From assembly GCA_902571925.1 (NCBI GenBank), contig CACGDW010000006.1:1-42644 (forward strand): 42,644 nucleotides of DNA, written 5' to 3'. Below the pieces are notes generated by a model. That model saw nothing but the letters and a program-made list of their open reading frames with translations. It was not told where the DNA came from and did not search any database. This DNA comes from an uncultured Pelagibacteraceae bacterium (GTDB lineage: Bacteria; Pseudomonadota; Alphaproteobacteria; Pelagibacterales; Pelagibacteraceae). A program made the translations under genes and the position numbers. Position 1 is the stretch's first letter, and every line of letters starts with the position of its first letter. Shown piece after piece: positions 40,465 through 42,644 of this stretch.

Positions 40465-41480
40465 TGAATAAAACAGATGCGCTTATAATTGGAGCAGGTC
40501 CAACAGGATTATTCACAGCACACCAACTAAAGTTAATTGGTCTTAATTGTGAAATAGTAGATAATTTAGATAAGATAGGAGGCCAGTGTATTGAGCTTTA
40601 TCCAGACAAACCAATTTATGACATACCTGCTGTTCCTGAATGTACTGGTGAAGAACTTACAAAAAATTTAATTAATCAATTGAAACCTTTTGACATAAAA
40701 TTTCATTTAAGTGAAAGAGTTGAAGAGGTAAAAAAAGAGAATGAAAATTGGATAGTTAAGACTAGTAATGGTAAAATTTTTTCGACACCTAATATTGTTA
40801 TCGCTGGTGGAGTAGGGTCTTTTGAACCAAGAAAATTCTCTCCGAAGGGATGTGAAAAATTTGAAAATAAATCTTTATTTTACATGGTTAAAGATAAAGC
40901 AATATTTGATGAAAAAATAGTTACAATCTTTGGAGGTGGAGACAGTGCATTGGATTGGGCAGTAGAATTATCTAAAAATTCAAAAGTAAATTTAGTTCAT
41001 AGAAGAGAAGAATTCAGAGGAGCTCAATCAACAGTAGATAAAGTTCATGAACTTGTAAAAGTTGGTAAAATAAATCTTTACACAAAATTTCAAATGGTAT
41101 CAGTAAATGGTTCTAAAAGTATAGAAAATATAGAAATTAAGCATGATAATAATGAAATTAAGAATATTAAAACAGACTATGTATTAGGTTTTTTTGGTTT
41201 AATAATGCAATTAGGTCCAATTGCAAATTGGGGACTTAATATCAATAAAAAAACTATTGAAGTAGATACTGAAAAATTTGAGACAAATCAAAAAGGCATT
41301 TATGCTGTGGGAGATATTTGTTCTTATCCTGGAAAATTAAAACTTATTTTATCAGGTTTTCATGAAGGAGCTTTGGCAGCTAGAGCATGTTTTAAATTAG
41401 CAAGACCAAATGAAAAATATCGTTTTGAATTTACAACAACTTCTTCAAATTTGTTAAAAAGACTTGGTAAAAAAGAGTGA
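40464..41480 (+). CDS. Ferredoxin-NAD(P)H reductase, thioredoxin-reductase-like fold
   Basis: 338 residues. The FAD-binding GAGPTGLFTAHQLKLIG, then GGQCIELYPDKPIYDIP, the NADP-binding GGGDSALDWAVEL with VHRREEFRG, and the C-terminal IYAVGDICSYPGKLKLI are the marks of the two-domain flavoprotein family. No redox-active CxxC is present, so it is a YumC-type ferredoxin/flavodoxin-NADP reductase and not a thioredoxin reductase, a frequent misannotation. It directly follows the ferredoxin with a one-base overlap and overlaps the next gene by 4 bases. It probably passes electrons from NADPH to that ferredoxin. Confidence 0.93.
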   Translation: MNKTDALIIGAGPTGLFTAHQLKLIGLNCEIVDNLDKIGGQCIELYPDKPIYDIPAVPECTGEELTKNLINQLKPFDIKFHLSERVEEVKKENENWIVKTSNGKIFSTPNIVIAGGVGSFEPRKFSPKGCEKFENKSLFYMVKDKAIFDEKIVTIFGGGDSALDWAVELSKNSKVNLVHRREEFRGAQSTVDKVHELVKVGKINLYTKFQMVSVNGSKSIENIEIKHDNNEIKNIKTDYVLGFFGLIMQLGPIANWGLNINKKTIEVDTEKFETNQKGIYAVGDICSYPGKLKLILSGFHEGALAARACFKLARPNEKYRFEFTTTSSNLLKRLGKKE

Positions 41481-42103
41481 TTGAGCTTTTCTCGGCAAAT
41501 ACTCCTAATGGAAAAAAAATTAGTGTTATGCTTGAAGAAATTGGCTATGAATACAAAGTTACTAAGATTGACATTGATAAAGGTGAACAATTTAAAACAA
41601 ATTTCAAAAAGATCAGCCCATTAAGCAAAATACCAGTCATCATCGATCATAACAACAACAAAACTATTTTTGAGTCTGGTGCAATTTTAATTTATTTAGC
41701 TGAACAAAGTGGAAAGTTTTATGATAAAAAAAATAGATTAGAAATCAATCAATGGTTAATGGCTCAAATGGGTTATATAGGTCCAATGCTAGGTCAACAC
41801 CATCAATTTCATCATTATAATCCTGGTAAAAGTAAATTTGGAGAAGAAAGATATTTTAAGATAGCTAAAAGAATATATGAGGAATTGGATGAAAGATTAT
41901 CAAACTCAAATTTTTTGTCAGGTAATAATTATACAATAGCCGATATTGGAACTTTCCCGTGGATTGCACGTCATAATTGGCATGACATTGGTCTAAAAAA
42001 TTATCAAAATCTCAAAAGGTGGTATTGTGAAATATCAAATCGTAAAGCGGTTATAAAGGGGTTTTCTTTTATGAATAAAAACGAGCTTCCACCAAAGCCT
42101 TAA
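41477..42103 (+). CDS. Glutathione S-transferase family protein, nu-class (YfcG/YghU-like)
   Basis: 208 residues from a GTG that overlaps the reductase stop (GTGA). The N-terminal thioredoxin fold holds ELFSANTPNGKKISVMLEE, with the TPNGKK signature of nu-class GSTs, and ISPLSKIPVIIDH with the cis-Pro; ESGAILIYLAEQ is the glutathione-binding SNAIL-type element. The C-terminal helical domain contains NYTIADIGTFPWIARH. Nu-class proteins act as disulfide-bond reductases or peroxidases with glutathione. Operon linkage with ferredoxin and its reductase suggests a redox role. Substrate unknown. Confidence 0.92.
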   Translation: MIELFSANTPNGKKISVMLEEIGYEYKVTKIDIDKGEQFKTNFKKISPLSKIPVIIDHNNNKTIFESGAILIYLAEQSGKFYDKKNRLEINQWLMAQMGYIGPMLGQHHQFHHYNPGKSKFGEERYFKIAKRIYEELDERLSNSNFLSGNNYTIADIGTFPWIARHNWHDIGLKNYQNLKRWYCEISNRKAVIKGFSFMNKNELPPKP

Positions 42104-42105
42104 TA

Positions 42106-42210
42106 TTAATTCATTGAATTTAGTAATCTAAATAATGAGGTAATTATACCATGACCAGAAAGTTCTATTAATAAAATAATGAAAATGATAAATATTAATT
42201 TTTTATTCAT
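42106..42210 (-). CDS. Tiny predicted membrane protein, downstream sORF
   Basis: 34 codons, ATG at 42210 overlapping the stop of the preceding sORF as ATGA, and stop 2 bases from the end of the convergent GST gene. The product begins MNKKLIFIIFIILLIE, a basic start and a hydrophobic helix of about 11-12 residues, then SGHGIITSLFRLLNSMN, which looks amphipathic. No homologue is recognised. Exact tiling with neighbours and the ATGA overlap, a common coupling signal, support it as a real gene. It carries no good ribosome site of its own, so it would depend on coupling. It is too short to assign a role. Confidence 0.5.
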   Translation of the reverse strand: MNKKLIFIIFIILLIELSGHGIITSLFRLLNSMN

Positions 42211-42341
42211 CTCGTAAAAACAAATATTAATAAAAGTATCCAAAAAAAAGCGTAATAGAAATATATATATTTCTTTGTAAAATTATATGTAATTGGATTA
42301 TGAACTGGCTTATCTTTCTTCTTCTTCTTCTTTTTATTCAT
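42207..42341 (-). CDS. Small basic single-pass membrane protein, sORF overlapping dksA end
   Basis: 44 codons, ATG at 42341 inside the last codons of dksA (8-base overlap, different frame). The product starts with Met-Asn and seven consecutive lysines, then a short polar part (DKPVHNPITYNFTKK), then one aromatic-rich transmembrane helix at residues 25-42 (YIYFYYAFFWILLLIFVF) and ends TR. Topology should be N-in by the positive-inside rule. An AAAAGG lies nine bases before the ATG within dksA. The family is not recognised. Overlap on both sides and a protein-like polar/hydrophobic design argue against chance. It may be cotranscribed with dksA. Confidence 0.6.
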   Translation of the reverse strand: MNKKKKKKKDKPVHNPITYNFTKKYIYFYYAFFWILLLIFVFTR

Positions 42342-42644
42342 CTGCGTGAACCTTTTCATTTTTTTCATGTTTTTCTTGTGCAGCAATAGTGTATTTTGCT
42401 ACAGGTCTAGCCATTAGTCTCTTTAAACCTATAGGCTCAGCGGTGTCTAGACAATAACCATAGGTATCATCTTTAATTCTTAATAAAGCCTTTTCGATTT
42501 CAGAAATTAATTTTATTTGTCTATTTATTGCTTTCATTTCAACATTTTTGTCAGTGTAAGAACTTGCCTGATCCACAATATCAGCAGAAATACTATTATC
42601 ATCCATAGAACCATGATAAAGGGCTTCATTATTTGCTTTAACTA
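42334..42644 (-). CDS. dksA: DksA/TraR-family transcription factor, 5' truncated by window edge
   Basis: The reading frame continues past the internal ATG at 42606 to the window edge; upstream codons read VKANNEALYHGS, so the gene starts outside. The visible part has DNSISADIVDQASSYTDKN, then EKALLRIKDDTYGYCLDT, AEPIGLKRLMARPVAKY and IAAQEKHEKNEK, the C-terminal globular domain and terminal helix of DksA. Of the four zinc-finger cysteines of E. coli DksA only the first remains (GYCLDT; the others are Thr, Thr and Ala), a pattern I associate with alphaproteobacterial DksA. DksA binds the RNA polymerase secondary channel and, with ppGpp, resets rRNA and biosynthetic transcription. Two small ORFs follow with overlaps. 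Confidence 0.93.
   Translation of the reverse strand, partial: VKANNEALYHGSMDDNSISADIVDQASSYTDKNVEMKAINRQIKLISEIEKALLRIKDDTYGYCLDTAEPIGLKRLMARPVAKYTIAAQEKHEKNEKVHADE

Follow-up and report, generated by a model that had tools for sequence, protein, structure and literature searches.

What do two very small open reading frames do in the gap between dksA and a convergent GST-like gene, and does their place behind a stringent-response gene say anything about their function? Both lie on the minus strand of the window, the whole stretch of 42,644 nucleotides that was analysed, close to its dksA end (Table 1). The sequence-only reading described them as a translationally coupled pair of small membrane proteins tied to dksA. 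The architecture it reported is correct to the base: the 44- and 34-codon frames exactly fill a gap of 230 bases, the start of ORF1 overlaps the end of dksA by 8 bases, the two frames meet in an ATGA, and ORF2 ends 2 bases from the end of the GST gene. The stretch of seven lysines in ORF1 is likewise present (Lys3-9), and the Met-Asn-Lys-Lys with which both products begin corresponds to a direct repeat, AGATGAATAAAAA, shared by the two start regions. If TTG starts are allowed, the ORF list also holds longer versions of 59 (ORF1) and 45 (ORF2) codons. Spacing from dksA differs among relatives. Part of the clade keeps the 8-base overlap; elsewhere ORF1 starts at 0, +2, +3, +5 or +8 relative to the dksA stop, and at one locus (L022) its ATG is immediately preceded by a stop. 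The region has 5 promoter-like matches, where shuffles average 4.8, and a search for terminator-like sites in it found none.

Table 1. Features of the dksA-GST locus in window coordinates.
Feature	Position	Strand	Description
ORF1	42207..42341	-	44 codons, 44-aa protein MNKKKKKKKDKPVHNPITYNFTKKYIYFYYAFFWILLLIFVFTR; Lys-rich N-tail, polar linker, predicted aromatic C-terminal membrane helix
ORF2	42106..42210	-	34 codons, 34-aa protein MNKKLIFIIFIILLIELSGHGIITSLFRLLNSMN; predicted hydrophobic helix, IExSGxG(I/F) hinge, second C-terminal helix
ATGA stop/start overlap, ORF1/ORF2 junction	42207..42210	-	4 bases common to both ORFs
ORF1 start / dksA end overlap, 8 bases	42334..42341	-	read from sequence
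Direct repeat AGATGAATAAAAA, first copy, at ORF1 start	42331..42343	-	
Direct repeat AGATGAATAAAAA, second copy, at ORF2 start	42200..42212	-	
dksA, 3' part; contig ends inside gene	42334..42644	-	Pfam DksA_N + zf-dskA_traR
GST-like gene, convergent neighbour	41477..42103	+	L193 homologue with Pfam GST_N + GST_C

Both ORFs are genuine genes under purifying selection. A codon-level, dN/dS-type comparison of 73 linked pairs in relatives (loci L003-L030 and L193-L272, sets that may share genomes, comprising 67 different ORF1 and 66 different ORF2 sequences) gave pN/pS values of about 0.16 (0.159 for ORF1, 0.169 for ORF2) against at least 0.9 in the shifted frames of the same pairs (2.338 and 0.905 for ORF1, 0.999 and 2.676 for ORF2), which bears out the coding status first proposed. 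Differences at codon positions 1, 2 and 3 number 4867, 5268 and 15813 in ORF1 and 2870, 683 and 7154 in ORF2, a marked third-position excess. The reported stop/start overlap is also kept in relatives: counting ATG starts only, the two genes share 4 bases in 67 of the 73 linked pairs, 1 base in 5 and none in 1. A second set, the named loci, is tilted to close relatives because the best 80 of 214 loci encoding relatives were kept; 57 of these 80 hold a linked pair, with a 4-base junction in 56 and a 1-base junction in the other. That the frames merely opened by chance in AT-rich intergenic DNA is almost certainly wrong: the gap is indeed AT-rich and other frames of the region hold short ORFs too, but the pN/pS values and their shifted-frame controls led us to reject this explanation, and the third-position bias, the conserved junction and the relatives at unrelated loci speak against it as well. 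A second match in the window's own genome (G000:C4:15839, 77% over 69 bases) has no ORF1 or ORF2 motif around it and was taken as chance.

Each protein is predicted to span the membrane once. In the family alignments, ORF1 has a Lys-rich tail followed, with variation, by F(A/T)KKYI(Y/F).YY..FW; ORF2 opens with basic residues, continues through a hydrophobic stretch and then shows, again with variation, IExSG.G(I/F)..(S/T)(L/F).R(L/F). The most hydrophobic 18-residue windows comprise residues 26-43 of ORF1 and 6-23 of ORF2. Single-chain AlphaFold predictions give ORF1 one helix (residues 16-43; mean pLDDT 76.8, low in the Lys tail) and ORF2 two helices (3-20 and 22-33; mean pLDDT 87.7) with a break at the SGxG motif. 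Hydropathy and AlphaFold therefore agree with the earlier assignment of one membrane helix to each small protein, as does the ORF2 model with that of a hydrophobic helix followed by a second one; both products would be single-TM proteins of about 30-50 residues. The conserved in-helix Glu, Ser, Gly and Gly of ORF2 and the YY and W of ORF1 look like helix contacts.

The two families match no described family in the libraries searched (Pfam, NCBIfam, PDB, PADLOC and PHROGs), as the sequence-only reading had supposed; the kind, the bacterial single-TM small protein, is already known. No Pfam-A or NCBIfam match reached a curated cut-off where cut-offs were printed, which in the member scans was for the first member only, and the NCBIfam search covered five single proteins. 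The best E values in the Pfam member scans were 0.0022 among 19 ORF2 members and 0.01 among 14 ORF1 members, from one member each. The former is a touch of Lysis_col on the N-terminal half of an ORF2 member (18.2 bits, cut-off 27); RAMP4, among six families that drew only one or a few members, gave E 0.041 in 1 of the 14 ORF1 members. No related PDB chain was found for either protein, searches of phage and viral contigs returned no relative, and PADLOC and PHROGs gave zero matches. Rfam, which holds described RNA families so that a new RNA would escape it, has no family at 41400-42644 up to E 1. Among the open-access papers listed, none dealt with SAR11 or these proteins.

ORF2 was confined to a single family, Pelagibacteraceae by our reading, in the samples of the order and of the class. 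All 106 ORF2 matches among the 197 genomes of the order sample, an unspecified share of which comes from other families, lie in two genera of the window's family (f1, which we take as Pelagibacteraceae), and the class sample of 190 genomes gave a match in the window's own genome only. Among 297 family genomes, 172 were matched by the ORF2 model and 109 by a first ORF1 model at E 0.1, and 187 by a widened ORF1 model at E 0.02, some of the matches in each case being weak; one match per genome is the rule. Four near-complete one-contig genomes have neither gene (G166, G082, G012 and G175), and the adjacent pair is present in G184. Weak ORF2-model matches in G012 and in genus g12 were short, lay mostly within longer frames and were rejected. 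Also in g12, ORF1-model matches with E values of 1e-3 to 1e-5 stand between thiolase-like and dihydrolipoamide-acyltransferase-like genes (L316-L322) and are possibly very diverged ORF1. A 73-aa protein (MANRPTKKQADNATKILISWKKKMPFYYAAAII...) encoded behind a 3-hydroxyacyl-CoA dehydrogenase/enoyl-CoA hydratase-like gene at L308, L309 and L311-L313 has an ORF1-like YY helix with no W after it and may be an enlarged ORF1 relative.

The proposed tie to dksA did not survive comparison with these relatives. In the window's genus, 72 dksA matches were obtained from 150 genomes and 64 of the loci were read; the pair stands behind dksA in 23 of them and is missing there in 41. Of the 57 linked named loci, 43 lie beside dksA and/or GST (42 directly behind dksA, 1 with a gene inserted between) and 14 in an unrelated carB neighbourhood, where the pair directly follows carB in 8 (ORF2 starting with GTG in 7 of these) and the MOSC-domain gene behind carB in 6. 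The carB and MOSC homes form one neighbourhood, and the linked homes total two. ORF2 has no adjoining ORF1 at the other 23 of the 80 named loci, 18 of which are at PMT_2 and GT2 glycosyltransferase genes, 2 at MOSC, 2 at dksA and 1 at an M24 peptidase gene. By Pfam names, ORF2 also has homes at a DctM-type TRAP permease in three genera and, elsewhere, at a sigma-70-family factor and a glutathione peroxidase gene, to which we add a site near what we take to be nadA. ORF1 alone accompanies, again by Pfam names, an arginase-family (speB-like) gene, a short-chain dehydrogenase, a thiolase, an aldehyde dehydrogenase, a 3-hydroxyacyl-CoA dehydrogenase/enoyl-CoA hydratase-like gene and proteorhodopsin. 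At most of these separate sites only a few bases lie between the gene and the one next to it. The motif-based listing of homes missed nine loci (L147, an ORF1 locus; L138; and seven named loci).

Relatives with the same dksA-GST synteny and no ORFs also exist. At nine loci read from genomes that have GT2 and no ORF2, the dksA and GST stops adjoin or overlap in six (L273-L275, L278-L280), another gene lies between dksA and GST in two (L276, L281), and no GST was seen in one (L277). Because the ORFs in this synteny are absent rather than decayed, the comparison refutes the tie to dksA and leaves the genes themselves standing. At L249 (3950-4060) the end of dksA is directly overlapped by ORF2, and ORF1 is gone between two AGATGAATAAAAA copies, which looks like a natural deletion of ORF1 between direct repeats. 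dksA is the present neighbour of the pair, and a partnership between them finds no support; its position is best read, if tentatively, as one of several lineage-specific parking places.

Two further observations concern dksA itself. In part of the genus (L193, L199, L206, L235, L262, L273-L277, L281 and others), DksA has a variable Lys/Ala/Pro-rich, histone H1-like N-terminal tail and measures ~166-204 aa as read, with uncertain start codons; at L133, L135 and L278-L280 the tail is absent and the protein has 138-139 aa. A Lys/Glu-rich, coiled-coil-like protein of 243-246 aa as read is encoded behind dksA at L256 (3135-3866) and L013 (1960-2700); that of L256 has no Pfam match, and its gene separates dksA from ORF1.

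Our favoured reading, held at rather less than even confidence, is that ORF1 and ORF2 are two single-helix inner-membrane accessory microproteins, coupled where linked and probably acting together on a membrane partner encoded elsewhere. Linked genes would share one mRNA, and ORF2 would be translated by termination-reinitiation at the ATGA, GTGA or TAATG junction, which would fix the ORF1:ORF2 ratio. ORF1 would lie N-in, its polybasic tail in the cytosol and its aromatic C-terminal helix serving as the anchor, and ORF2 is predicted to form a short anchor, to break at the E-x-S-G-x-G hinge and to continue into a second, amphipathic helix. We think it most likely that the two proteins assemble with each other and join, in an accessory or regulatory capacity, a larger membrane protein whose gene lies elsewhere; dksA would be a source of transcription and ribosomes, not of function. 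The identical gene order and overlap in the dksA/GST and carB(-MOSC) neighbourhoods support this proposal, as do the selection on both proteins, the contact-like conserved positions within the helices, the presence of both genes in most GT2-carrying genomes of the mostly unlinked clade, the confinement of ORF2 matches to one family in the order and class samples, and the lack of relatives in the phage and viral contigs searched. Points against it are that each gene is found without the other, that four near-complete genomes have neither, and that no fixed neighbour presents itself as the partner.

It is also quite possible, and only a little harder for us to credit, that ORF1 and ORF2 are independent microproteins with separate functions, their shared operon reflecting the habit of tiny genes to hitch behind translated genes and not a partnership. 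Each has homes of its own next to a variety of genes, usually packed tightly against them; ORF1 is absent beside ORF2 at L249, L210, L204 and L213 (for L210, taken as G366, there is no ORF1 match anywhere in the 92%-complete assembly), and ORF1 occurs without ORF2 in G356 and G364. The retention of the same order and 4-nt overlap in two unrelated neighbourhoods argues for joint action.

Co-inheritance bears on both readings. Among 101 genomes of the genus, all at least 90% complete except the window's own, 77 have both genes, 7 ORF1 only, 3 ORF2 only and 14 neither (Fisher p 1.2e-9), the weak ORF2 matches in G012 (E 0.06) and G004 (E 0.09) being counted as absent. Five of the seven ORF1-only genomes also have no GT2 match, and the region may therefore be missing from their assemblies. 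For a marker tree, 80 genomes were taken from the 101 with near relatives dropped, and the 74 that had the marker were used; ORF1 and ORF2 were concordant in 7.2 of 11 independent pairs (median p 0.016) and in 8.4 of 12 (median p 0.008) on this tree, which was built by a quick method, leaves 29 of 71 inner branches unsupported, and includes G358 as a 30% fragment and only the longer piece of the split G230 marker. Both the Fisher and the whole-tree significance arise because linkage and assembly gaps drive the signal, linked genomes losing both genes at once. Only 2 and 1 independent pairs are left in the mostly unlinked clade (p 1). Once linkage is removed there is no independent co-loss signal, a result that suits independence and for which we rejected co-inheritance as proof of joint action; given joint loss in linked genomes and too few unlinked pairs, we do not claim it. 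Both genes are nevertheless present in 25 of the 30 mostly unlinked-clade genomes with GT2 in the assembly (23 unlinked, 2 linked), or 23 of 28 with the two linked genomes set aside, which counts against independence. We put joint action only a little ahead of independent function. Separately, two frames make up the pyruvate-phosphate-dikinase gene of G230 (L413), and that of G362 (L384) carries one TAG, through either sequencing error or decay.

An unlikely but more specific form of joint action would be a two-part microprotein machine specific to Pelagibacteraceae, in which an overlapping cassette, combining a polybasic tail-anchored helix with a Glu/SGxG-hinged helix, moves between operons, has its two genes gained and lost together, and regulates one conserved membrane enzyme or transporter. 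If this were true, the most abundant ocean bacteria would possess a two-part regulatory membrane machine.

The neighbours of ORF2 suggest another candidate role, which we consider improbable: a small membrane subunit working with the PMT_2 (ArnT-like) and GT2 glycosyltransferases in a lipid-linked sugar pathway. ORF2 lies between the two genes, both labelled, in 14 of the 80 named loci, or in 18 of 80 when truncated or unlabelled neighbours are included, all in one clade, and it often overlaps them by 1-4 bases. In the dksA type, the glycosyltransferase pair (Pfam PMT_2, Glycos_transf_2) is divergent just across dksA. The same elements recur in genus g14, where ORF2, proteorhodopsin, ORF1, GST, dksA and the PMT_2/GT2 pair lie within ~10 kb at L287 and in the same row, with no recognised ORF1, over ~11.5 kb at L286. 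On the tree, 6.7 of 12 pairs are concordant for ORF2 and GT2 (median p 0.016), a result confounded because the genes adjoin and assembly gaps remove both; for ORF1 and GT2 the figure is only 3.0 of 11 (p 0.25). Against such a role, GT2 occurs without ORF2 in nine genomes of the genus (G012, G082, G166, G175, G352, G356, G364, G390, G394), ORF2 without a GT2 match in two, both incomplete assemblies (G156, G180), and ORF2 follows a TRAP permease in three other genera. At L267 (2401-3306) the PMT_2 gene is missing, and GT2 comes immediately after the start region divergent from dksA.

We regard it as very improbable that one of the proteins is the small, hydrophobic toxin of a type I toxin-antitoxin system, whether or not the second ORF is its partner. 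Size, hydrophobicity and basic ends are shared with such toxins (Ldr, TisB, Hok and Fst), and the Lysis_col touch on a single ORF2 member points the same way. Unlike these toxins, ORF1 and ORF2 are under strong purifying selection and usually give one match per genome, and our searches found for them neither a known RNA partner family nor phage relatives nor a PADLOC match.

SAR11 genomes are streamlined, and few dispensable genes survive in them. Given the strong selection on ORF1 and ORF2, their wide retention and their repeated re-housing, both tiny genes therefore probably do something useful in SAR11. Their case also illustrates how family models can trace the small membrane genes of streamlined genomes where gene order fails.

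Among known systems, YqjD and ElaB of E. coli and eukaryotic RAMP4 resemble ORF1 in joining a basic N-terminal tail to a C-terminal anchor; ORF1 is much shorter, has no common motif with them and scores at chance level against RAMP4. ORF2 bears a resemblance, no more than a lead, to the first helix of SMR proteins (EmrE, ArnE/F), with a mid-helix Glu and a Gly three residues on. SMR flippases can also stand between PMT_2 and GT2 genes, as ORF2 does in one clade; unlike them, ORF2 has a single predicted helix, not four, and no Pfam match. A parallel in kind is with AcrZ, KdpF and CydX, likewise 30-50 aa long, with one membrane helix and often encoded within an operon or as its last gene; two of them, AcrZ and CydX, each modulate a large membrane complex. 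No sequence relation to these three was found, whether as a Pfam or NCBIfam match at cut-off or as a related PDB chain. In contrast to them, ORF1 and ORF2 occupy many different homes, with no fixed neighbour to name a host complex, and they are two overlapped proteins that change address as one unit.
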